Shown piece after piece: positions 5,141-58,915 of a stretch of 64,000 nucleotides of DNA. Within the stretch, counting starts at the first letter, position 1, and each line of letters starts with the position of its first letter. The position numbers were made by a program, and so were the translations under genes. Under the pieces are notes generated by a model. That model saw only the letters and a program-made list of their open reading frames with translations, ran no database searches and was not told the origin of the DNA. Source of the stretch: Phycomyces nitens (taxonomy: Eukaryota; Mucoromycota; Mucoromycetes; Mucorales; Phycomycetaceae); assembly GCA_022702545.1 (NCBI GenBank), contig JAHRBC010000008.1:1116001-1180000 (forward strand), in the 5' to 3' direction.

Positions 5141-7150
5141 TTGTACTTTGGACATGCTGTCAACGATGCCGATTGAATTCAAGAGATTGAGAAAAGAAAA
5201 AGTTTAAATGTTAGAATGAGTAATAGTAATAGTCGCGAATAATACGGTGAAAGCTTTGAATAGGTACCCAGCACAAATAGTTAGAGAGAGTGAGAGAGTG
5301 AGTGAGTCAGTAGTTAAGGTTTCTTAGTTGGAGATACAAATAATTATTTATAGTATTTATAGGTTTCTACAGGCAAAAATACATGGCGTCTATTTACTAA
5401 TAATGTCATAGTTGGTCTATACATGAGAATAAATTTATTTGGGAACCAAAGCAATACAAGACATCTGGAATGAAGCAGGCCTTGGAATGTATATTGTTGT
5501 ATTTCGATTATATAAAGATGTCCAGCCATTTATTAAATATTTGGACAGATACAAGATATATTGTGTGTTAGTGTGTCAGATATTTATAAATTAGTTATCC
5601 GCCTCTAAGTGTCATATCTATTTGCACCATCGATTTGCGAATACGGGGGACAAAAATCTTATTTTATAAAAAAAATGGAGGAAAAAAATTACGATGATTT
5701 AATTGATGTCCTTGGTATTAAGGGGTGAATAGGATATAAATCAACGTAATCTACACTGTAGCGAACAAACATAAACATTGAGACTGAAAATACATATGAT
5801 TTTGCGAATACGGGGGACAAAAATCTTATTTTTTAAAAAATAGGAAAAAAAATTACGATGATTTAATTGATTTCCTTGGTATTAAGGGGTGAATAGGATA
5901 TAAATCAACGTAATCTACACTGTAGCGAATAAACATAAACATTGAGACTGAAAATACAGACAAATACAGACAAATATAGAGAACATCCTATTGGTTACAT
6001 TCAATGCACCTTTATGCACCTTTATGCACGTCTAGGTTAATAGTATTATTCCCTTGTCTTCCTTGTAAAGATACTTCATAAAACCAATCTACGGATTGTG
6101 GTAGGTGATATATTTTGTATCTGGGAATGTCTGCAACTTTCATTCGGCCAATTTTAACCCCAATTACGATTCCTTTTCTTAAATCAAAGTGTATACAGAG
6201 TATTATGGGGGCCGAGTGTTTTATACCTTCAGCATGTTGCAAAATATGACAACCCAATTCAAGAGATTAAGAAAGAAAATTTTAAAGGTGGGGAAAGAAA
6301 TTAAGAGGTGAGGAATATGAGATATTTTATTTATATGGATTGAGAAGATAAGGGTTTGGGTGTGACGTTGAGTAAAAAGATTTTGTTGAATGAATGAATG
6401 AATGAATGATTGAAGAGAAGGGGTAGAAGGATGAGAGTGAGTTTTATTGAATTTGAGTTGATTAGTTTGTTGTTGTTGAGATAAGTATGTGATATATTGT
6501 ATGATATATTGTATGATTGTATTTTGTGAGTAAGGATTGAAAAATTGAGGTTAGATAGGGGGTATGATAAGAATTGCGGGATTTAAGGATTTGTGGAGAA
6601 AGTATAGTTTGTATAAAGTGAAAAAGAGTTTTTGAAGTGGGATATGTGGATTTTAAATGATTATTGTATGTGTGTTTGTGGTTGAGAGGGGTTGAGAGGG
6701 GAGAATTGATTGAATTGATTGAATTGAAGGAGATTGTGGATGTAATGATCCAGTATGGATAAGATGGGATGGATTTATAGAGTTTTTGAAATATGGGATT
6801 ATTGAGCGAACAAGTGTTTAGATTTGATTGGGTTAGTGTTGAGTGTATTGAATAAATGATTTAATAGAGGATCGATTAGTAGAAAAAGAGTTGAAAGACT
6901 AATAAAAAGGTTTAAAGATGGATATGATGGATTGGGATTTTGGGTGGGATTTTTTGCAGTGAAGATTTTGTAGCTGGTTAAATTGATCGAATGTGTCAAG
7001 GGGACTGAGAGACTATATTATTCTTATTTTTTGATATTACTAAATTATGTGGATTGCGGTCAAATCAACAGAGATCAGATACAAGCTTGATAATGGATTC
7101 TATGGTGGGCGGTGTAATATAGACTAATATTGATTGTATATAGATTATAA
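5141..7150. repeat. Repeat A, copy 2 (2.0 kb)
   Basis: Near-identical second copy of bases 1-2018, in direct orientation. Its internal direct repeat and C-depleted tract are both retained. Similarity to copy 1 stops at the string GATTATAA (7143-7150), where foreign sequence with Helitron coding remnants begins. The same GATTATAA string reappears at 14205-14212, where similarity to copy 1 resumes. Confidence 0.95.
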
Positions 7151-7470: not shown

Positions 7471-10400
7471 ATGGAAGATAATAGAGTAAATATGGATGTA
7501 GAGTGCCAGTTCTGTGGTGCATTGATGCGGATCAATGAAAATAACAGTCAATCTTCAAGAAATAGCCCAAAATTCTCTATGTGTTGCAACAAAGGAAAAC
7601 ATATCGTTCTTAAACTTGATCCCACCTCTATCCCAATTCTTGAACTTCTTGATCATTCTACACCAGCTTGCGATAATTTCTTTTTGCATATCAGAAGCTA
7701 TAACAGCATATTGAGATTCACCTCACTGGGTGCTAACATCGATATTGCAGCTGCTAACAATCGAGGTAGTGCTTATAATTTTCGAATTCACGGAATCATT
7801 TGCCACAGAATTGGATAAATTGTCCCCATGAGCGAATCTGAGATCGCAAACCCTCAATTTTCTCAGATTTATATCTATGATCCAGTCTGTCAATTAGATC
7901 AAAGGCAACAGAATGCCTCGCACCTAAAAAGAGATGTCTTGGAGAAACTCCGGTCCGTTTTGATGGGTACTAATCCATTCGTCTCATTGTTCAGATCAAT
8001 GCATGAAATATCACAAGAGAATGGTCATACGGCAGACCTGACTTTGCGCTTGGTCGCTGAAGGCTCTCAAGATCAAAGACGCTATAATGCTCCAACTGCC
8101 GAGGAAGTGACAGTGTTAATCATGAACAACGAACCTGGCACCTCTAGGCACATCTTCCTTCATACCAAAACACATTTCTACCAAAACACCAATGAGTATC
8201 ATCGATCCTATAATGTTCTCCATTATGTTTTTCTCTTTCCCTCTGGCGAAGATGGCTGGACTATCAGTTCAAAGTCCCTTTCTGGAAATCGTGTCACTGT
8301 CATGCAATGGTATTCCAATCGGCTGGTTTACCGCCTAAACTCTCTTCATTATCTTTATCTCTTTGGCCGCCTCTTCCAGAAGCATATTATGGACATGTAT
8401 GCGAAAATTGAGCATAATAGACTCAATTATGCCACAAGCAACCAGGAGCGCCTCAGAGTAGATTTCTACAGTGGAATACAGGATGCTATTAATCTCAATG
8501 ACAATTATTTGGCAAATCTTGGTCGCTGAGTCATCCTTCCATCGTCATTTATTGGCAGCCCACGCCAGATGCGTCAACTCTACAAGGATCCAATGAGCAT
8601 TGTCCGCCATTTTGGCAAGCCAGGCCTCTTTGTGATGTTCACTTGCAACCCAACTTTACCAGAGATTGCTACCTCTATTTTGGCCGGACAAAGGGCTAAT
8701 GACCGCCCTGATCTTTGCTCCCGTGTTTTTAACATAAAGTTAAAAGATCTTATAGATAATCTGACCAGAAAGCATATTCTTGGAAAGGTGAAAGCCTTCA
8801 TATATGTAATCGAATTCCAAAAAAAAATAGGACTTGTACATGCACACATTCTCTTGATTCTTTACACAGATGACAAGCCTCTCTCGCCTAATTACTACGA
8901 TCTTATAGTCTTGGCCGAGCTTTCCAACCCTGTCGCGGAACCCTTAGCCTATGAAAGTGTACATAGAAATATGATGCCTAGACCATGTGGGCCGTCTCAT
9001 CCAAGAGCCCCATGCGTGGAAAATAGCCAGTGCAAGAAGTGGTTTCATAAAGCCTTTTGTAAAGAGACAGTAGAGGATGGATCAGGGTATCTTAAATACC
9101 GTAGAATAAATGACGGAAGTTATGACATGAAAGGATCCATTAAGTTGGATAACCGATGGGTAGTTCCCCACAACCGTAACCTTTGTGCAAAGTACAACGT
9201 GCACATTAATGTTGAGATAAGTACCTCTGTTTCTGCAGTGAAATACCTGTATAAATATGTATACAAGGACCATGACCGCGCAATGGCAAGCGTACAACCC
9301 ACATCTATCACCAACGCCACGTTACAGCAGCCTCAGGAGAACACCAATGAAGTCGAGGAATTCCCTGATGCTCGATATGTCTCGGCATCCGAAGCATATT
9401 GGAGAATCTTCTCATTCAAGCTTCACCAAGAGTACTCTTCCCACCAACGACTTGTCATCCACCTTGATTACTCCAAATTGGTGTATTACTATGACTCTGA
9501 TAATCTGGAACAATTGTCACATACAAATACAAAAACCACAATGCCAATGTGGTTTTCGTACAATGCAGCAAATCAAGAATCTCGGCGCCATCTGTACACT
9601 AACTCTCCTGCACATTATGTCTGGAATCCAAGGGACAGAGTGTAGACCCCACGCCAGAGATTCAAAAATGAAACAATTGGCAGAGTTTATGCAGTTTCTC
9701 CAAGAGATATTGAAAAATATTGCTTGAGAATATTGCTAAACAATGCACGAGGCTCCATGAGTTTCAAAGACATCCGCACTGTAGACGGCCAAATATTTGA
9801 AACAAACCAAGCTTCTTGCCGTGCTCTAGGCCTTTTGATGAATGATAATAAACGGAACGATTTCATGAAAGATGCTGCAACTCACCAGCTCCCGTAATAA
9901 CTGAGGCGGTTATTTGCTATGCTTTTGGGATTCTGTGAAGTTTCCGATCCTTTTGTCATCTAGATGTCTCATCACACTTCTATGATCGAATATTATCTTT
10001 ATCTGGCCATAAATAACGAAGCAGATTCTTCCTTGGAGCCTACCCAAGACATGTACGACAGATGTCTGTGGGATATTGAAACACACCTGTCCGTAAACTC
10101 CCTCACTCTCACTTCCTTTACCGGATTTATTTTTCCACATTTGCCCCAAAACCCCAGTCTTTTACAAAATCGCCAGACATCACAGCCAATTCTTTAAGAA
10201 CAGCAACAGCTCTGCAATGACGCCCGTCTCTTGTCCTGTCCTGACGACTTTACCTAAAATGATGATCAACACTCAGTATATGACACAATACTGGAAGCTG
10301 TTGATGCCTCTCAGCTTGCACCAAGACTGTTTTTGTCGATAGCCCGGGTGGCACAAGAAAGATATTTGTCTTTAATGCCTTGCTCCAGAAAGTACGCCAA

Positions 10401-11679
10401 ACAGGGAAAATTGCTCTTGCTGTTGCAACCGGTGAAATTGGTGCCCATCTGTTAGATGGTGGTCGTACAGCCTGTGCGAGGTTCAAGATACCAATTGACA
10501 TTGACACGAGTTCAATTTGTTCAATTTCTGCCAATTCGCAGTTGGCTGAGCTGACCAATAAAACCGAGTTGGTTATTTGGAATGAAGCGCCCATGATCAG
10601 TAAGGATGTCTTCAATGCAGTAAGCAGATTCATCCAGGATATCATGAATGCTGTGGACCCCCTGCTTGAGCACGTCCCATTTGGAGGAAAAATATTTATC
10701 TTTGGTGGTGACTTTTATCAGGTTCTTCCTGTTATCCCAAGAGCATCAAGATCACAAATAGTGTCCCAGTTCATCAACAGAGCCAATTCATGGAGACATG
10801 TAAATACGCTCAAACTCAGGAAGTATATGAGAATTTCCCAGGCGAACACTCCCAAAGAAGCAATGCAGCTCAAGATCTTTGCAACATTTCTCTTGCAGGT
10901 AGGCAATGGCGTTGTCCCCATCACATGTGGTTCTGACACAGTCCCCATCCCCTCAACAATGTTGATGCAAGGCCGCAACATTTCTCACCTGGCCAGTGCT
11001 GTATTCCCCAACCTCTCCTCAAATTCAATCATCCCTCAATTCCTTATGGGTCGTGCCATATTAACACCAAAAAACTCAGACGTCTCCGGACTCAACAACT
11101 TGATTCTTGATCAGTTTCCTGGACAGCTAAAAGAATACAAAAGCATTGATCAGGGTATAAATGAAGACAACCTCTTGGCATATCCAATTGAGCTCCTCAA
11201 CTCTCTTGATTCTGGATTCCTGCTACCCCACAGTCTTCGCCTTAAAAAGGGCTGTCCCATCATGCTGCTAAGAGACCTTGATCCAAACAATGGTATATGT
11301 AATGGCATTCGCCTTATATGCTGTCATTAGGGCAATGATTGGCACTGGGTCTAATGCTGGAAAACAAGTTCTCATCCCAAAGATCAAGCTCAATCCATCC
11401 GGATCAAATGCTTCGATCCAATTCCAAAGATACCAGTTCCCAGTCCGTCTTGCTTTTGCCATGACCATCAATAAGTCCCAGTGTCAAACATTGGACAGCG
11501 TTGGCTTATACCTTCCTTCCCCAGTTTTTTTTCATGGCCAATTATACGTTGCCCTTTCCCGTGTGCGGAACCCATCTGGGATTAAGATTATGTTTGATAC
11601 CCCCTATGACCCCAATATGCCCCAAACTACAACATTTACAACCAATGCAGTATATAAGGAAGTGCTTACAAGACATTAA
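7471..11679 (+). pseudogene. Helitron Rep/PIF1-helicase gene, decayed
   Basis: Replication initiator and helicase of a rolling-circle transposon. One frame runs from 7471 to 10197 and is broken by stops at 7816, 8527, 9643, about 9895 and 9961. It shows the N-terminal CCHC-like region (CQFCGAL, CCNKGK), the HUH metal motif as VHAHILLIL near 8835, and the tyrosine motif KYLYKYVYKDHDR near 9243, so the catalytic Rep residues survive. After a frame change the PIF1-like helicase follows (10320-11330). Its Walker A reads PGGTRKI instead of PGGTGKT, and Walker B reads WNEAP instead of WDEAP. A further frameshift near 11315 leads to the last helicase motifs (FAMTINKSQCQTL, YVALSR). The stop at 8527 fits a CGA to TGA change. 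It cannot encode an active transposase. Confidence 0.93.
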
Positions 11680-12435: not shown

Positions 12436-13849
12436 ATGCCAAACATGCCAAACGCCACAGCCAAAGAAGCTTTGCCTATTCTCGATTTGAAGAAATTGTT
12501 TCTCCAGGAAAAGTCTTACTTGTCTTTCCCAAAGACAGTTGTAAGTCTTTCATATATTTTTATGTCTTGATATTTAATGCCTATATCTTTATAGTACCCT
12601 GAACTCGAGCCTTTTGAACACAAGGATCCTGGCCACCGTGCTGATCCCAAGAAAGCGTCTCTCTATGAAAATGCCGAAAAGATATTCGATGTTACTCCCA
12701 ACGTCGGTACCGAGATTCATGGCATTCAGCTCTCCAAGTTGACAAACCAGCAAAAGGATGACTTGGCACTGCTTATTGCAGAGCGTGGTGTTGTGTTCTT
12801 TAGAGATCAAGACATCAACTATGAGCAGGGCAAGGAGCTCGGAAGACACTATGGTAAGTTTTTATTTTGAAGAAGAAAAAACGTCAACTAAACAATCATC
12901 TTTATAGGTCCTCTGTATGTATATTAAATACACCTGTAGCTATTACAAAACACTAATATTTGTATATAGTCCTGTTCATCTTTTAGAAGGACATGTTCCC
13001 AATGAACCAGAGGTGCTCCCCATCTTTTATGACAAAAGGTAATAAGTTGATCAACAACACCAGCCTTCTTTATCTGACTGTGGTTATCTTTTTATAGTGA
13101 AGCAGCAGTCAAACGCGTCGCGGCCGCAAGAGACGGTGCTACCAATGGTACTTTGAAATATATTTAAAAGTGCTCTATTACTTATACATCAATGTTTAGG
13201 CTGGCACACTGATGTGAGCTATGAGCTTCAGCCTCCAGGATTTACCTTTTTGAAGATCGATATTTTGCCACCTGTTGGTGGTGACACCATCTGGGCATCC
13301 AGCTACGCCGCCTATGATAGTCTCTCTCCTCCTCTCCAAAAGTTCCTCGAGGGACTCGAGGTTGTGCATTCTGGTGTCGAACAGTGTTTGGGTGCAAAGG
13401 CTCGCGGATGGACTCAGCGCCGACAGAATGTGGAGCATACTCATCCTCTTATCCGTACTCATCCAGTTACAGGCTGGAAGGGACTCTTTGTGCAGCCTGT
13501 GTTTGCCCGTCGCATTGTTGGATTGAGCAGACGTGAATCGGATACTATCCTCAACTTCTTGTATGCTCACCTCTCTGGTGGATACGACTTCCAAGTGCGA
13601 TTCAGATGGACCGAAAACACCATCGCAGTCTGGGACAACAGAATCACTACTCACTGCGCAATCTTCGACTATTTGAAAATTGACAAGCGCCACGGATGGA
13701 GAATAACAACTCAGGTAATATATACATGCTAATAACCTATCTTTGTATCATATTACTTATCAACATAATAGGCCGAGAGACCATTCTTTGACCCCAAGAG
13801 CAAGTCCAGACTCGAAGAGCTTCGAAAGCAGCAGAATGCTAAAAAATAA
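12436..13849 (+). CDS. TauD/JLP1-like Fe(II)/2-oxoglutarate dioxygenase
   Basis: Predicted oxygenase of the TauD family, which in fungi releases sulfite from sulfonates such as taurine. The substrate here is not determined. Seven exons join in frame to 360 residues: 12436-12540, 12595-12853, 12908-12914, 12970-13038, 13098-13147, 13200-13714 and 13772-13849. All borders are GT-AG, and exon 3 is only 7 nt. The iron ligands are visible as the HTD motif (about His166, Asp168) and a distal His near 315 in NRITTHCAIFD. The 2-oxoglutarate-binding Arg is near 331 in GWRITT. No stop or frameshift interrupts it, in contrast to the decayed transposase just upstream. The first ATG is chosen; a second lies three codons on. 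It lies inside the Helitron-like insertion, so it may be captured cargo. Confidence 0.9.
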
Positions 13850-17900: not shown

Positions 17901-18526
17901 AAACCTTTTGGTCAAGGAATTCAATTTATCCTATCGATACCGCCGTTATAAATCCTTGGAGTCATAAAATCCATTTACAATGTTTCTGGAAAAACAAAAA
18001 GTATATGTAACCATCAATAATCTGGCTCAAAGCCCTAGGTTTTGCCGAGAACCCTATTGGGCGGAATCACAGGAAGTTCTCCATGGCGGAGAAGATGGTT
18101 ACCGGCAGATACATAGCTAGGATGGCTGGATTACGAATCCAAGTAAACATTCAGACTCCAAATGTACAATCTTCTCGGAAGAACAAATCACGTTTTCTTT
18201 AAAGTCTCTAAATGGAATGTTATATTATATGAATATTTCGAGTTATTATCACTGAAATAATAAAAAAGTTAAAATGTGAATAACTGAATTTCACATTATC
18301 AAATAATCTTTTGCTGTTGCCTTGTTGGTTAAATTCCACTTTTAAGCTTGATGCCTGTACATCATGAGGGCCTTCCATACCTCTGTAACAGATTAAAAAA
18401 ATCAATCAATTCATGAATTCAGTTAAACATGTTGGCAAATCCATCGTATTAATTAATCAGCTGGGAAGGTTGAATTTCTAGTATATTGTCTTGTGAAAGG
18501 CATTTACATATTGTATATTATGCTGC
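14935..18526. other. AT-rich stretch without a supported gene
   Basis: Only short open frames occur, for example 15198-15386 on the plus strand and 16679-16948 on the minus strand. None resembles a family I know. An AT microsatellite lies near 15917. The stretch may contain decayed repeats, but no termini could be recognised. Confidence 0.5.
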
Positions 18527-20799
18527 ACCCAAGCTTCTTTGTCGATTAAACCAAAATCATTTTGTACAAGCACATATCGCTGACTTTTTTTTTGTCTTTA
18601 AGAGTATAAAGAACCGATCTATATGGATATTTTTAAAGTGAAATGCTATGCTAATAAAAATATAAACATCTTGTATGTCCAACTGGATTCTCATAAAGGT
18701 CTTTGTGACAAACTAAAGTGCAACATCTTGTTTTCACAAGAAAAAAATTGAATATATATTTATATGCCAAAAGGCCATATGCTTTGATTCAATCAATACG
18801 TATTGTTAGTCCTGTTTTTGTTTTTTATGACCAATGACTTTACTGATCATGGCTCCTACAGCAGCTCCTGTAGCAGCTCCTGCGGTAGTCGCAGTTGATA
18901 CGATGGGAGCAGACATCCCAAGTGCACCCAAAGACTGCATTCCAGCAAAAAGACTGCCTGCTGGTACTGCACCAGCATAAGTTGCCATCCATGCTGCGGC
19001 AGGGGAGCCAGCTATTATTCCTCCTGGCCAGAATCCTAGCAAAAGCGGTGGTGCCATAACAACGAGAGGAGTTGCGATCCCCCCTACCACTACACCAGCA
19101 GCTCCAATTTTAACTCCATTTGGCACACGATCAAAAGCCTCTTTGACATTATCGTGAAATGTCTTGGATGTTGCTGCATTGCGAATGGCCGTTGCAGCGT
19201 TATTAATTTGTTCATTATTTTGCAGATTATTGTAAGCGACATTTGCTGACGATGCTACAAATGACAATGCATCCTTTGAATTGGAGGTGATGGTATCAAT
19301 GCTTGGCGCTTTTTCAGACAGTGCAATCAGCTTTGGCAATGAGTAATTCATGACACTGGAGGACTTTTGCTGAATGGTTTCTGCACTGGGTAGTTGGTTG
19401 ACTAAATAACCAACAGATGCCTGTGCTTGGCCTGCGAGTTGATTAACCTGGCACGGGTGTCAAGACTATTATTTGCCATGCATTACTTGATTGTATGTAT
19501 ACCTGTTCTTCTGATGGAATAGGTATATTCTTTGGAATATTTTCTGCGATAAAATTATACATTCCCTTTAAATCCATGGTTGATCTTGTTTGGCGAAGAA
19601 TATAAAGAAAAAGAAAAATCAAAAGCAATGGCCTACACTATGTATAATAGTTTATTTAGATGTGTAACGAAAACAAGTCCCCTTTTTGTACTTTCTCGTA
19701 CAATTGAACAAGGATATTCAAAAAATAATTGAATTAAACATGCTGTTCATGGTATGAACATCATACGTATTCCAACCAACTACAGGAAAGAGGTCAATAC
19801 AATAGTAATCAAGTCTGACTATATTGTCTGTAAAACCACTGTAAAAAAGTATTAAAAGCCAATGTGTTGGATACTATTCGCACACAATTTGATAGAGTAT
19901 CATACTAAATGTACTTTTCCTAACAGGATTGGCACTAGAGTATTAAATATAGATCTTCAAGTATTAAATTAAGCCATATTCCATGATAAAGTACGATTTA
20001 TATCATGATATTCAACTTCATTATTTTGTATTTTTCGATCCATGAATTTTTCCATTAAAAATCTAAACATATAATGACCATTCTTAATACTCAAATGCAC
20101 CGTAAAGACAGCTATATTGGCTCATTTCTGCTCATCCAAATACATAGTCTGCAATAATCTGCTATTAGTTAGTACATCACCTGAGAATCGATGTACCACA
20201 TTTCATTTCTGTAAACATTATTTTTCTTTATTGTTTGTGTGAATGAATATCTATAAAACTATATATGCCACCAATGAACATTAGGAAACCTCTAATATTA
20301 TTGCATATATAGACTCCTAGCCACAGATTTTCTTATTAATCTCTTTCCAAAGGCTGTCCCGCACCGTCTTTTTTTTAAATTTTAGTGGAACAAAGTGTTA
20401 CACTCAATGTTTTGGTCTGACAAGCCGGTATATATTCTATTTTCTACATTATTCCCTATGGACAATTCTTTATTGTCAAATCTTTTGTCATTCTGACAGC
20501 TTTCTCGGTTCATGCTTCCAAGATTTTATCACTAAACCATTCAAAAATCCTCTATAAATCCTCTTGTTTAATCTAGGCAGTTTTCTAAAACATCTCTACA
20601 TCGATTGCCTATGGTTGTGTAGCCAAAACCTAATATTGGTACTACATGCTACCATGCATCATTCTAAATTATATAATAAAAGCTTTAAAAATGGAGCGTC
20701 AATTTCTGGAAGCACTGTAGATTACGATAAATTCATTCTAGACCCATTGATTTTAGCTGTTTTCCAAGTCTTTTGAATGGGTTAAAAAGACATTATTAA
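18527..20799. repeat. Segmental duplication, copy 1 (2.3 kb)
   Basis: Nearly identical to 24745-27028 in direct orientation. It spans the 3' flank, both exons and at least 1.2 kb upstream of the IFI6-like gene. The flanking DNA differs at only a few percent of positions by eye. The coding 3' half differs far more. Similarity ends at the string AAAAAGACATTA, next to the LINE. Confidence 0.93.
18806..19577 (-). CDS. IFI6/IFI27 (ISG12)-like membrane protein, copy 1
   Basis: Predicted 238-residue protein from two exons (19577-19503 and 19447-18806) joined by a 55-nt GT-AG intron. The start is the first in-frame ATG. Residues 1 to about 110 are soluble, Asn/Ala-rich and probably helical. From about residue 120 there is a Gly/Ala-rich hydrophobic domain with GFWPGGIIAGSPAAAWM and GSLFAGMQSLGALG, the pattern of the interferon-inducible 6-16 family. 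The tail is HKKQKQD. Animal members are small organelle-membrane proteins linked to cell-death control. The role in fungi is unknown to me. A close paralogue lies at 25011-25776 with the same N-terminal half but a very different C-terminal domain. Confidence 0.85.
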
Positions 20800-21012
20800 A
20801 AACAATTGTTCTGTGTGGATAAATATTCTATCAGCCCACGATCTCATAATGAGCACTAGTATGAGTATCCCTGAGGGATCGAACTCACATAGCAATACTG
20901 TCAAGCCATAGCAGGTCCAACGACTAGCAATCTGTCTACAGAGCATAACACCCATTTTCAGAACAAGTCTTTTCATGTCTTTACTGCACCTGGTTTTGAC
21001 CAGAACCTCTCC

Positions 21013-22169
21013 ATGGATCCAGCATCTGCTGCCTGGGCCAGCACCATCCATCCGTCGAGTATTTTGTTCAATCTCGCTAAACTCGTTCCTGCTAGCGTAG
21101 TAGACGATGTCCTCTCCAGCGACATTGGTCAAATAACCTCGTTGACCTTGCGGAACATTCGTTCAAAGGACCATTTTTCAGAGACCCTTTTCATCGAACC
21201 TGCCACCCGGATGAAAGCCATTTCCGACGTCCTGGTGTATTAGAACACCAGGATTGTCGCATCTCCATGTTTACCTTCCAATAGTCATATTGTGAAGGTT
21301 AATATTTATCGTGTCAGCGCTTGCTATCCTAAAACTGACCTTCTTGCACTCATTGAAGAGGCCTCTCATTCGTATGAAAAGGTTGTTCAATTGCGTGCAT
21401 ACGTCTCCCACCGTGGAGAAGCTAGTGTCTTTCTGGAGACATCTGGATTAGATACACCCAAACCTCTCCCCAGCCGCTTTTATTCGTAAGGAACCATCTC
21501 CTGCACAGTGGAGCTGCGTTCCAAGGATATTCCACCAATTTGTGGGTGTTGCCGTGAGGAAGGTCACTTCCTGCGCCCATCTTGTACACTCTGGTTTAAG
21601 CGCTGTGGTATCTTGGATCATGAAATGGTCAGCAGAGACTGCCCTGCCCACCCCAACACTGTTGAGGCCGAGTGTCTTCATCAAGAACAGCTCCAATTGG
21701 AGATTGCTGAAGTAGAAGTTCTTCTTACTCATCAGGAAGCTGTTAACACTCCCCCATCTCCTCCTAGTGTAGTTGTAAGTTCGACGTCAAACATTACACC
21801 TCCTGCTCCCATCTCTTTGGCTCCCAAGCCCATTCGTCGCCGATCCATGCCGGTGATGACCACTCGGTCCAAGCCTGGATCCGATCGACCCCCTGCCTCA
21901 TTGGTGATGACATTGACATACCAATGTATGATCCCAGTGGTCGAGACACTGCTGTCAGCAAATACTCGTTTGCCGCTCGAGGCATTGCCCTTCCTGAGGA
22001 CGGTGTCTCCCGGCCCGTAATTACAGATGACGAATTTCGCCAGTCCTTGTTTGACCTCTCCGTCCAGGAACATTCCCAGTGTAATCAGCTCTTCACTGAT
22101 CTTGACGGCAATACGCCTATGGAAGAACTTGACCCTCCCTCTAGCCATTCTGGCCAGCCATCTTCCTAA
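21013..22169 (+). pseudogene. LINE ORF1 (gag-like, CCHC zinc knuckle)
   Basis: One frame runs from 21013 to 22020, interrupted by stops at 21241 and 21487, and then continues in another frame to 22169. A zinc knuckle CGCCREEGHFLRPSC (C-x2-C-x4-H-x4-C) lies near 21541-21585. A Pro/Ser-rich linker follows. This is the usual RNA-binding ORF1 layout of fungal LINEs. The stops and the frameshift show that it is dead. Confidence 0.8.
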
Positions 22170-22199
22170 ATTACTGTATAGTCTATCCGCTTAGGAACC

Positions 22200-24535
22200 T
22201 TGAATGCTCGAGGTCTCCTCTCCACAATCACTAATCCGCAATTCCCCAAACGTCTCTTTATCCGTCACCTCCGTTCCTTCTCTCCCTTACTTTCCATACT
22301 TGCTCTACAAGAGACCCATTTTCTTCCTTCCCATTATTCTACTATGCACCTTCTCTTCCAAGCCCAGGCAAGTCTTTAGACTTCGCACTGTGGCCTTATC
22401 TCTTTCGATCCCCTTCTCCACCTTGAACAACTGTAAGTGTCACCAGATGACCGTGCACTAGTTGTAAAGGTTAAACATACTGATCAACGCATTGATCCTT
22501 TTGCTGTTGTTGTTCTTTATGCTCACAATATCCGTGCCCAGAGGCGCACTTTCTTTTTTCTTTTGCCCTCCTTCTCCCTTCCCTAGTCCCTTCACTTCCT
22601 GCCTTTGTATTAGGTGACTTTAACTGCAATCTCCATCAACGTTGAAGCCATCCTGCAGACTGGCAAGGCTACCTCCAAGGTAATTGTATCGATGCTATCA
22701 CTAATTCCGCCTCTTCCCCTACCCCTACCTTCCATAGTTCCCGAACCCGCACATGCATCGACTACCTCTTCCGCCCCTCCTCCATCCCCACTGAATTACC
22801 TGAAGTCAGCTTCATCAATCCTTCTTGGACTGACCGCTGTCTCCTCGCTGTTTCCATTCCTCTCTCTCGTCCTTCTGGACCTGGGGTCTGGCGTTTCAAC
22901 ACCCAGTACCTTCTCCACGATGAATTTGACACTATCTTGACCAATCTTTTGGATAAGGCAAGCCACTCTTTTCCCGAAGATGCTTCCCCTGGGATCCGCT
23001 GGGATTGTCTCAAGCAGGCTGTCAAGCAATTGTCTCTCACTTATGGCAAAAAGGTTCAACGTCGCCTCCACCGCCTCCGCAATGAGCTCTCAGGATCTTC
23101 GTCCTCACCTCAACTCTCTTCCGTCGAGTCTGAGCTGGCCTCGATTCAACTATCTCGTGCCTCCACCATTGCAACCCGAGCTGGTGCCAAGTGGTGTGAA
23201 GAAAGCGAGACATCGCCCAAGTATTTTTCCGAGTACTCAAGCAACGCTCTGCTGCCAAGTCCATCACCACTCTCATTGACCCCGACATCTCCACCACCTT
23301 CACTTCACCAGCAGACCTGCTTGGCTACACACGCTCATTCTACCAATCTCTATGCTCTCAAGAAGCCATTGACCTCTTAGCCGCTCACTCCCTCCTCGAC
23401 CACATCCCTCCTTCTACAAGCCTTTCTTCTGATGACTCCACTCCTTTGACCTTTAAAGTGACGCTGGACGAACTCAAGTCTGTACTTAAGAACACCCCGA
23501 ACAACTCTAGCCCTGGCATGGATAGTCTGCCGTACCCTCTGTGGTCGCGCTTACTTGCTCACCCCACCATCCAGTCCCTTGCTATTGAGGTGTATCAGGA
23601 TGCTCTCTCTGTTGTTTTTCCTCCTTCCTAGCTGGAAACAGTCTTGGTCCTGCTTCCAAACTCTGGTGACCTGACTTCCCTTTGGAATTAGCGCCCTATC
23701 TCCCTCACCAGCTGCGACGCTAAACTCTTCACCAAGATGCTCACATCCCGTCTAAAATGTTGCATTGGCGATCTTGACACCCCCTTCCAAACAGGTTTAA
23801 TGACTGGTCGCTTCATTACGGGCAATGGACGTCTCTGTTCCCAACGTTGTGGTGGTCCCCCAAGAGCGCGGAACCACATTGGCCAATTCTCCAGCAAGAT
23901 CGATGCTGGTAGAATGGTCTATTGCTCTTGGTTTCTTCCATGTCTTCAACTCCCATTCCCTACCTCACCTCCTCCGTCTGGTCTATCCTCTTTACTCTCA
24001 GTAGTCCTTTTGGACAAATGCCTTCTGGGTAAAACATCCACAGGATCCTTGCGCCGGTATCTTCGTCCGTCCCCTCCTCTGCCTCTTCCTCCTCTTCCTC
24101 TTCCTCCTCCTGCTCGTTGGCATCGTTTTTGGTCTCTGGTTATCTCACACCATTGCCGCACTTTGTGGTGGAAAGTGTTATGGAAGCCGATTCCCACCCG
24201 ACTGGCCATTAACACCATCATGCCTTGTACCGTCTCTGACCCCATGTGATTGGTGTGCTCCACCGACACCAAAGACCTAGACCATCTCTTCTTCTTTTGT
24301 CCTAAGACACGCCAGGTGTGAAGCGTAGTCCTCTCTCGTTTCTGCTGTAGCTGGACTCTGGATGATGTTAAGCAGATGCTGGCATCCTGTCAAATCCCTT
24401 GTGTTTCTCCCATTTGGGATACTCAGATTCTGCTGGTGATTTTGACAGCCAGGGCAATTTGGAATGCTCATTGGAAGTTTGTCTTTGACAAGCAGTCCCC
24501 TTTTTCCTGGAGTATTGGCTATGAAGGCCTCCAGT
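22200..24535 (+). pseudogene. LINE ORF2 (AP endonuclease + truncated reverse transcriptase)
   Basis: Fragments appear in several frames. The apurinic-type endonuclease gives LALQETHF near 22300, GDFNCNLH near 22614 and IDYLFRPS near 22758. The reverse transcriptase begins near 23440 with SPGMDSLPYPLW. It continues with RPISLTSCDAKLFTKML and QTGLMTGRF up to about 23830. Soon after, the frame shows only the C-terminal RNase-H-less zinc-binding part (WKPIPTRLAIN near 24185, then HLFFFCP). The fingers-palm core, including the expected YADD box, is missing, so an internal deletion is likely as well as frameshifts. Confidence 0.85.
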
Positions 24536-24744
24536 AGTATAGAGAAACAGCGGGCTATACTAGCTTAGGGTGTTTTTCTTCTTCTCTTCTACTTATTTTC
24601 CATACTTTTCTTTTTTATTTATCACCTTATATTGCCCAATTTTATCTTTATCCCTGTTCTCCAAGTCCATTTCAAAGGCAATCTAAAATCTGCACGCTAT
24701 ACTTGACGTCAGATCATTAAAATATTAAGAAAAAATAATGTTGT

Positions 24745-27028
24745 CCCCAAGCTTCTTTGTGGATTAAGCCAAGATCATTTTGTACAAGCACATATTACTA
24801 ACTTTTGTTGTCTTTAAGAGTATAAGGAACCAGCCTATATGGATATTTTTAAAGTGAAATGCTATGCTAATAAAAATATAAACATCTTGTATGTCCAACT
24901 GGATTCTCATAAAGGTCTTTGTGACAAACTAAAGTGTAACATCTTGCTTTCACAAGAAAAAAAATTGAATATATATTTATATGCCAAAAAGGCCATATGC
25001 TTTGATTCAATCAATACGTATTGTTAGAATCAATGATTCTACTGAGCATGATTCCTCCAGTAGCTCCTCCAACAGCTCCTACGGTAATCGTAGCTAATAT
25101 AATGATAGCAGGTAGCCCACGTGCACCCAAAGACTGCATACCAGAAAGAAAACTTCTTGCTGGTACAAAACCACCAAAAGTTGTCATCCATCCTGCGGCA
25201 GGGGAGCCAAGTCGTATTCCACTTGGCCGGAATCCTAGAAAAAGTATTGATGTTATGACAATGAGAGGAGCTGCGGCCCCCCCTACAAGTGCACCAACAA
25301 TTCCAACTTTAACTTCATATGGCACATTGTCCAAAAGTTCTTGGAAAGTTTTCTGAAGATTTTCTGATGTTACTGCATTGCGAATGGCCGTTGCAGCGGT
25401 ATTAATTTGTTCATTATTTTGCAGATTATTGTAAGCGACATTTGCTGACGATGCTACAAATGACAATGCATCCTTTGAATTGGAGGTGATAGTATCAATG
25501 CTTGGCGCTTTTTCAGACAGTGCAATTAGCTTTGGCAATGAGTTATTGATGACATTGGAGGTCTGCTGCTGAATGGCTTCTGCACTGGGTAGTTGGTTGA
25601 CTAAATGACCAACAGATGCCTGTGCTTGGTCTGCGAGTTGATTAACCTAGCACCGGTGTCAAGACTATTATTTGCCATGCTTTACTTGATTGTATGTATA
25701 CCTGTTCTTCTGATGGAATAGGTATATTCTTTGGAATATTTTCTGCGATAAAATTATACATTCCCTTTAAATCCATGGTTGATCTTGTTTGGCGAAGAAT
25801 ATAAAGAAAAAGAAAAATCAAAAGCAATGGCCTACACTATGTATAATAGTTTATTTAGATGTGTAACAAAAAACAAGTCCCCTTTTTGTACTTTCTCGTA
25901 CAATTGAACAAGGATACTCAACAAAAAAAACTGGATTAAACATGCTGTTCATGGTATGAATATCATACGTATTCCAACCAACTACAAGAAAGAAATCAAT
26001 ACAATAGTAATCAAGTCTGACTATATCGTTTGTAAAACCATTGTAAAAAAAAGTATTAAAAGCCAATGTGTTGGATCCTATTTACACACAATTTGATAGA
26101 GTATCATACTAAATGTACTTTTCTTAACAGGATTGGCACTAGAGTATTAAATATAGATCTTCCAAGTATTAAACCAAGCCATATTCCATGATAAAGTACG
26201 ATTTATATCATGATATTCAACTTCATTATTTTGTATTTTTCGACCCATGAATTTTTCCATTACAAATCTAAACATCTAATGGCAATTCTTAATACTCAAA
26301 TGCACCGTAAAGACAACTATATATTGGTTCCTTTCTGCTTATCCAAATACATAGTCTGCAATAATCTGCTATTAGTTAGTACATCACCTGATAATCGCTG
26401 TACCACGTTTCATTTCTGTAAACATTATTTTTTCTTTGATCAACTTGACATTGTTTTTCTTTATTGTTTGTGTGAATGAATATCTATAAAACTATATATG
26501 CCACCAATGAACATTAGGGGACCTCTAATATTATTGCATATATAGACTCCCTGCCACAGATTTTCTTATTAATCTCTTTCCAAAGGCTGTCCCGCACCGT
26601 TTTTTTTAAATTTTAGTGGAACAAAGTGTTACACTCAATGTTTTGGTCTGACAAGCCGGTATATATTCTATTTTCTACATTATTCCCTATGGACAATTCT
26701 TTATTGTCAAATCTTTTGTCATTCTGACAGCTTTCTCGGTTCATGCTTCCAAGATTTTATCACTAAACCATTCAAAAATCCTCTATAAATCCTCTTGTTT
26801 AATCTAGGCAGTTTTCTAAAACATCTCTACATTGATTGCCTATGGTTGTGTAGCCAAAACCTAATATTGGTACTACATGCTACCATGCATCATTCTAAAT
26901 TATATAATAAAAGCTTTAAAAATGGAGCGCCAATTTCTGGAAGCACTTGTAGATTACAATAAATTCATTCTAGACCCATTGTGTTTAGCTGTTTTCCAAG
27001 CCTTTTGAATGGGTTAAAAAGACATTAG
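24745..27028. repeat. Segmental duplication, copy 2 (2.3 kb)
   Basis: Second copy of 18527-20799, same orientation, carrying the paralogous IFI6-like gene. Non-coding parts are almost identical to copy 1, including the sequence just after the stop codon and the upstream 1.2 kb. Beyond AAAAAGACATTA the copies part. Confidence 0.93.
25011..25776 (-). CDS. IFI6/IFI27 (ISG12)-like membrane protein, copy 2
   Basis: Predicted 236-residue paralogue of the gene at 18806-19577, with the same two-exon structure (25776-25702 and 25646-25011) and the same intron position. The first ~110 residues are about nine-tenths identical to copy 1. From there the hydrophobic domain diverges to roughly half identity: GFRPSGIRLGSPAAGWM replaces the first motif and SFLSGMQSLGARGL the second. 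The C-terminus is SNNTY rather than a lysine-rich tail. The reading frame is fully open despite this divergence, which argues for a working gene. A pore or scaffold role in an organelle membrane is only inference. Confidence 0.83.
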
Positions 27029-58518: not shown

Positions 58519-58543
58519 TATTTCACTATGCTAATATTTTTTT

Positions 58544-58747
58544 ATACCCCATACCAAATTTTATGCCTTGTATGCCCAATCCTTTACTGATGATTTACTT
58601 TATTTTATTTTTGTTAATACCCCATACCAAATTTTATGCCTTGTATGCCCAATCCTTTACTGATGATTTACTTTATTTTATTTTTGTTAATACCCCATAC
58701 CACATTTTATGCCTTGTATGCCCAATCCTTTACTGATGATTTACTTC
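58544..58747 (+). repeat. Three tandem 73-bp units after the zinc finger gene
   Basis: Units beginning TACCCCATACCAAATTTTATG repeat at 58544, 58617 and 58690. Each contains GCCTTGTATGCCCAATCC and a T-rich end. They differ by about one base, and the last unit is cut short. They start 26 bases after the stop codon, so they lie in the expected 3' UTR. Confidence 0.95.
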
Positions 58748-58915
58748 CTTTATATATATACAACACCGTATGCCTAAATGTCAATTGTATCTCTCATGCT
58801 ACTCTTAATTATTGCCTTGATATTTTATTTTATTTTTTTTAAAAAAAAGAAGGTGCTCTACATCCCAGTCACATATATTTGTTTCTACAATCCAAATCCC
58901 AAACCAAACACAACC

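Follow-up and report, generated by a model that had tools for sequence, protein, structure and literature searches.

How can two copies of a gene remain almost identical in their non-coding DNA while part of their coding DNA has changed heavily? This question is raised by a locus in the fungus Phycomyces nitens, within a 64,000-nucleotide stretch of contig JAHRBC010000008.1 (positions 1,116,001 to 1,180,000 of the forward strand), which is called the window here and whose own numbering is used throughout. The window contains two spliced minus-strand genes of the IFI6/IFI27 type, designated A and B, that lie within direct repeats of about 2.28 kb and are separated by a long interspersed nuclear element (LINE). 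We consider it probable that the two genes are duplicates born of a LINE insertion, and that strong positive selection has since acted mainly on the membrane domain of B.

The two repeat copies (Table 1) were compared in a DNA alignment, in which mismatches were counted over aligned sites. The upstream DNA differed at 40 of 1216 sites, the intron at 3 of 55, exon 2 outside the diverged block at 12 of 274, and the DNA directly downstream of the A stop codon (18600-18805) at 6 of 206, or 16 of 284 over the longer stretch 18520-18805; exon 1 showed no mismatch in 74 sites. In the block that encodes the hydrophobic domain (18806-19173), 86 of 349 sites were mismatched. In a codon alignment, in which gaps are placed differently, 96 of 360 nucleotides differed from codon 117 to the stop codon, mostly as replacements, compared to 12 of 348 in the N-terminal half; for replacement differences, the contrast between block and N-terminal half was extreme (Fisher p = 3e-19). 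Of the 114 gap-free protein sites in the block, A and B share 54, compared to 64 of 71 over residues 46-116. The initial annotation, made from the sequence alone, had described near-identical duplicates with a diverged hydrophobic domain that was about half identical in protein, and both descriptions were confirmed. It had also placed an abrupt change between residue 110 and the stop codon. The end at the A stop codon stands, but the onset does not, since divergence begins at codon 117 (base 19173). As it had further stated, both reading frames are open: the IFI6 frame contains no stop over the block in either copy, and each of the other five frames contains at least one stop in each copy.

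The coding structure of the two genes is the same, with a 25-codon first exon, a 55-nt intron (GT..AG in gene A) and a second exon. Gene B is identical letter for letter to the NCBI protein CLU79DRAFT_774814 (P0002), and the C-terminal part of gene A is identical to P0001, a public model of 181 aa that begins at an internal Met and therefore lacks exon 1 together with the first part of exon 2. These NCBI records give 192,654 bases for their longest contig, less than the length of the contig studied here, so they probably come from another assembly, possibly of the same strain; the agreement of A and B with them speaks against assembly error. Since about 19 additional nucleotides precede the stop codon of A, the last codons of B extend into flanking sequence that is conserved. 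The C-terminal end of A reads HKKQKQD, and that of B, DSNNTY, resembles the EPNNTN of P. blakesleeanus.

Silent and replacement changes are distributed very differently in the block. By counting with the Nei–Gojobori method (NG86), replacement divergence (dN) was 0.403 and silent divergence (dS) 0.156 in the block, compared to 0.034 and 0.039 in the N-terminal half. Four-fold degenerate sites differed at 3 of 41 in the block and 2 of 48 in the N-terminal half, the block holding about 13 silent changes in all. Differences in the block numbered 43, 29 and 24 at the three codon positions, third positions having the fewest, and the substitution spectrum was mixed, with both transitions and transversions. 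The initial annotation had proposed that dN/dS (omega) be computed along the gene, and it proved to be 2.9-3.9 in the block and 1.0-1.2 in the N-terminal half. A pairwise maximum-likelihood codon model gave omega values for the block of 2.93, 3.13 and 3.93 under three choices of codon frequencies, with likelihood-ratio p values against omega 1 that varied with that choice (0.0016, 0.00064 and 4.6e-5 in the same order). In the core of the domain (residues 133-230), omega was 4.28, 5.31 and 7.06 (p 0.00099, 9.7e-5 and 1.5e-5), and in the N-terminal half omega 1 was not rejected (p at least 0.8).

Neutral simulations with the same amount of nucleotide change as observed led to the same result. 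In the core, 2 of 39 four-fold sites differed compared to an expected 22% (p 0.0008), and 11 third-position changes were found compared to 21.5 expected (p 0.001); for the whole block, the corresponding p values were 0.0006 and 0.025. Codons with a single change carried 33 replacements and 3 silent changes in the core (p 0.0018) and 41 and 6 in the whole block (p 0.0066). Because single-change codons also show the replacement excess, multi-nucleotide mutations alone are not its cause. Counting, likelihood and simulation support the conclusion that replacement exceeds silent change in the block, which points to strong positive selection. As in accelerated evolution, dN exceeds dS in the coding DNA of the block (p at most 0.0016), its 5' edge excepted, and the intron and flanks are more conserved than the block. 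A similar pattern is described in PMC2711939 for duplicated snake-venom toxin genes, whose introns and untranslated regions are similar and whose coding parts change mainly by replacement. Compared to the venom genes, the present case concerns a fungal protein of the membrane type, with two copies only and one domain affected.

The two copies have not changed to the same extent. At 93 core sites compared with the P. blakesleeanus protein (P0003), 24 matched A only, 7 matched B only and 13 matched neither; the chi-square for 24 versus 7, worked by hand, is 9.3. Over the block, A was identical to P. blakesleeanus at 68 of 114 sites, B to P. blakesleeanus at 55 of 114 and A to B at 54 of 114. The C-terminal part of A is thus no less conserved between the species than residues 46-116 (39 of 71). 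This interspecies conservation implied that the domain is not fast by nature and that the burst of change belongs to the A–B pair, mostly to B. The initial annotation had offered strong diversifying selection or cassette exchange as explanations. The first is supported, but in an asymmetric form in which B departs most; the second, which is weighed below, is not. Such asymmetry would fit a directional retuning of a single copy better than it would a balanced series of alleles.

Gene B nevertheless retains the marks of its family. A family profile was built from the homologue alignment without its two P. nitens rows (19 rows, fragments shorter than 40 residues left out). Against this profile, A scored 96.6 bits and B 63.7 bits. 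Neutral versions of A with an equal number of nucleotide changes (n=1000) scored 33.1 bits on average, with 1 of 1000 reaching B, and versions with an equal number of amino-acid changes (n=1000) averaged 26.0 bits, with none reaching B. When P. blakesleeanus was removed from the profile as well, A scored 81.5 and B 54.8, and the simulated means were 26.2 (one version reaching B) and 20.0 (none). Glycines were changed at 3 of 17 positions (14 kept), compared to 61 of 103 other residues (p 0.0016). Mean hydropathy was 0.60 in A, 0.69 in B and 0.30 in the simulations, of which 22 of 1000 reached B. The lysines and arginines of the core rose from 2 in A to 6 in B, with four arginines in B at the A positions W165, I170, G189 and L201. 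The profile score and the retention of glycines argue that B is not a decaying copy, and they indirectly suggest that its function is retained.

Between the two units lies a single LINE copy, a non-LTR (long terminal repeat) retrotransposon, with an A-rich 3' end, broken frames and an internal deletion of 1.3 kb relative to other copies. At least 45 matching pieces, itself included, occur in its own genome (best 40 of 128 candidates scored), and 11 copies picked from 45 listed pieces were used for comparison. Read against these copies, the LINE begins next to where unit A ends and finishes, with its A-rich tail, next to where unit B starts. The sequence shared across the ends is 12-17 nt in 10 of the 11 other copies and 7 nt in one, and it is 5 nt at the twin locus. 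The ends abut both repeat copies without an ordinary short target-site duplication (TSD), as a long TSD would leave them, and the order unit–LINE–unit accordingly has the geometry of a TSD of 2.28 kb. The LINE insertion probably made the twins; an alternative is that a LINE inserted later, exactly at the junction of a tandem repeat. At new L1 inserts in human cells deficient in repair, abnormally large duplications have been recovered (PMC5223499). The two cases are alike in that a LINE is flanked by a duplicated genomic segment. The present case differs in its length of 2.28 kb, its fungal host, the inclusion of a whole gene and the later divergence, and its event is read from geometry. Compared with its relative L013, the LINE differs at a proportion of 0.053 in the middle (5-7%) and of up to 0.170 near one end. 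Its divergence is uneven along its length, as if it were a mosaic. In an alignment of 8 of the 11 copies (L017, L019 and L020 left out), C to T and G to A changes account for 152 of the 302 that are private to it.

The twins resemble the IFI6/IFI27 membrane proteins (ISG12, FAM14; the interferon-induced 6-16 family, PF06140) in their PF06140 domain and differ from them in that roughly 140 residues precede the Pfam match; to our knowledge, the organism that hosts them has no interferon. At a cut-off of 29.1 bits, the exon-2 products of both genes matched PF06140 (A 43.4 bits, B 29.6 bits), and A conforms to the 16 invariant or nearly invariant positions found in an alignment of 21 sequences. 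A full-length search of 5.8 billion proteins (2578 candidates scored) returned three proteins, all from Phycomyces and including A and B, and a search with the C-terminal part returned two. A domain profile search found 19 proteins at E of 0.1 or less, A among them, three being weak (E 0.046-0.089); the matches included Apophysomyces, Ceratobasidium, Rhizoctonia and the mussel Dreissena. A profile built from A, B and P0003 matched the structure of human IFI27-like protein 1 (2loq_A) at E 2e-4. Structure models of A (P0001) and B (P0002) from three-sequence alignments had mean predicted local distance difference test (pLDDT) values of 36 and 34 and were unusable. No paper on fungal IFI6-like genes or on the A/B pair was found among the literature matches listed, and PMC9815663, which deals with the effector domains of fungal NOD-like receptors (NLRs), contains no mention of interferon, Ifi or PF06140.

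Several observations weigh against a LINE-born pair under selection on B. First, in the 5' edge of the block (codons 117-132), single-change codons comprise 7 replacements and 3 silent changes, a count that omits 5 multi-change codons and shows no excess, and the dS of the block is above that of the N-terminal half (Fisher p 0.03). This edge may predate the flanks, or its alignment may be poor. Second, the comparison covers a single sequence pair and a single protein outgroup, in which the annotated N-terminus may be wrong, so the omega values are pairwise and not branch-specific. Third, B keeps 14 of the 16 conserved family positions by manual reading, VPAG having become VPAR and one Ala having become Ser, and the changed residues show no helical periodicity in any of three segments, so that no interaction face was found. 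Fourth, two upstream runs lack mismatches between the units, one of 283 nt (20319-20602, containing one 2-nt indel) and one of 187 nt (19482-19669), with p of about 0.001, which suggests some homogenisation of the flanks by conversion tracts, or constraint. Fifth, the uneven and C-to-T-rich divergence of the LINE provides no usable clock, and no age was taken from it.

A rival explanation is that A and B are paralogues of old standing. Gene conversion would have homogenised their flanks and N-terminal halves but spared the block, which would have diverged in the ordinary long-term manner. The sharp edges of the block, the long upstream runs, the raised dS of the block, the 5' edge without replacement excess and the resemblance of B to an ordinary functional homologue would all be expected, and the parts of the LINE that differ by 15-17% from a relative would suit an event further back in time. 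However, ordinary old divergence is largely silent, and here only 3 of 41 four-fold sites differ. The contrast between silent and replacement change lies inside the block and is independent of any homogenisation of the flanks, and omega 1 is rejected there whatever their history. Within the block, A and B are no more alike than B and the other species. The initial annotation had named silent divergence equal to replacement divergence as the sign of an old gene with homogenised flanks. Such equality was not found for the whole block, but at its 5' edge no replacement excess was seen. The excess is found in the core and not at this edge, which places the signal in the membrane domain itself. We regard old paralogy as unlikely.

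The statistics themselves might overreach, if omega were near or slightly above 1 and had been inflated by codons with multiple hits, small samples and a block delimited post hoc. The small number of silent changes in the block, the dependence of p on the codon-frequency model and the weaker single-change result for the whole block (p 0.0066) are all in line with this concern. Several treatments nevertheless agree, that of single-change codons included, and even with an omega of 1, the block would have to mutate several times faster than the flanks. This explanation appears quite improbable.

Cassette exchange, in which the membrane domain of B or A was converted from another family member, would account for the abrupt edges at codon 117 and the stop codon. 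The initial annotation had placed such exchange within a larger family, for which no donor was found in the genome: a PF06140 search of the P. nitens genome (48.98 Mb, 11 contigs) found the A and B places only, both over the cut-off, and protein and DNA searches of the same genome gave two DNA places and no third member. Furthermore, an old imported cassette should be silently diverged too, and the silent sites of A and B are nearly identical in the block. Cassette exchange is therefore unsupported and very unlikely. Local hypermutation or an overlapping code is no more attractive, and we give it slightly less weight. The changes are sharply clustered with third positions fewest, and one plus-strand frame of gene B is open across most of the block (25006-25356). 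However, hypermutation would strike four-fold sites equally, and the spectrum is mixed. The corresponding frame is absent from A, with at least two stops, and the two copies have no second frame in common that stays open across the block. Least credible of all is relaxed constraint, with B as a decaying copy under neutral drift, since its altered near-invariant positions and lower PF06140 score are outweighed by an open frame, kept glycines, a family score above 999 of 1000 neutral simulations and a replacement rate far above flank divergence, which drift should not outpace.

Table 1. Position, strand and description of the features at the twin locus, in window coordinates
Feature	Position	Strand	Description
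Gene A, IFI6/IFI27-like, 238 aa	18806..19577	-	exon 1 19503-19577, intron 19448-19502, exon 2 18806-19447
Gene B, IFI6/IFI27-like, 236 aa	25011..25776	-	exon 1 25702-25776, intron 25647-25701, exon 2 25011-25646
Duplicate unit with gene A	18520..20795		non-coding parts 3-6% different from the B unit
Duplicate unit with gene B	24738..27027		from the alignment of both copies
Diverged block of gene A (codons 117-238 and stop)	18806..19174	-	holds the hydrophobic IFI6 domain; 86/349 mismatches
Diverged block of gene B (codons 117-236 and stop)	25011..25373	-	from alignment and codon comparison
About 19 nt unique to A, directly before its stop	18810..18828	-	from the alignment
One LINE copy filling the gap between the units	20800..24738	+	from matches to other genomic copies

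Other features were noted in the window. A second direct duplication joins 1-1948 with 5141-7082 at a spacing of 5134-5140 nt; its repeat families D2, D3, D6 and D7 are 100% identical, so it is much younger. A Helitron remnant occupies 7819-11327, with Helitron_like_N in two open pieces and a PIF1 helicase. An open frame at 13157-13732 has a TauD-type dioxygenase domain (PF02668), and a 73-nt unit is present at 58534-58752 in three tandem copies that are 90-100% alike.

For the twin genes, the favoured account of LINE insertion followed by selection on B would run as follows. In the lineage of P. nitens, an IFI6/IFI27-like gene present in one copy would have received a LINE insertion next to it; to judge by the geometry, an unusually long TSD of about 2.28 kb would have left a full copy of the gene on each side of the LINE. 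Copy A would have kept a membrane domain near the ancestral one. In copy B, the sequence statistics indicate that positive selection drove dozens of replacements in the membrane domain, and that its glycine positions and overall hydrophobicity were maintained meanwhile. B would then likely be a further membrane protein, built like A but having either a new partner, lipid or protein, or an altered membrane activity, for which its domain may have been selected while A kept the old role.

Genetic conflict is a plausible force behind such selection by analogy with the animal members of the family. In animals, IFI6/IFI27 members are induced and antiviral, and IFI27 varies in potency with the host species, that of the pig-tailed macaque inhibiting HIV-1 more strongly than human IFI27 does (PMC10182734). 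In Littorina snails, an actinoporin-like protein carries a fused IFI6/IFI27 domain (PMC12197748). The speed of the change would be accounted for best by an antagonist, for instance a mycovirus or an incompatible strain, whose role as the driver in B is speculative, drawn from the antiviral role in animals and from analogy. The full proposal, that one LINE insertion produced in a single step a twin that became a fast-evolving counterpart of IFI6/IFI27 in a conflict with a mycovirus, a selfish element or non-self hyphae, with the membrane domain as the contested part, is possible but doubtful.

If the selection is as proposed, its confinement to the shared membrane domain would show where on the fold an opponent or partner is encountered, and would do so in an organism that lacks interferon. 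The A/B pair would offer a clean natural experiment for this family, as the upstream DNA, the intron and the N-terminal half are nearly constant between the copies. Finally, the locus is a candidate case of one LINE insertion creating a new gene in one step.

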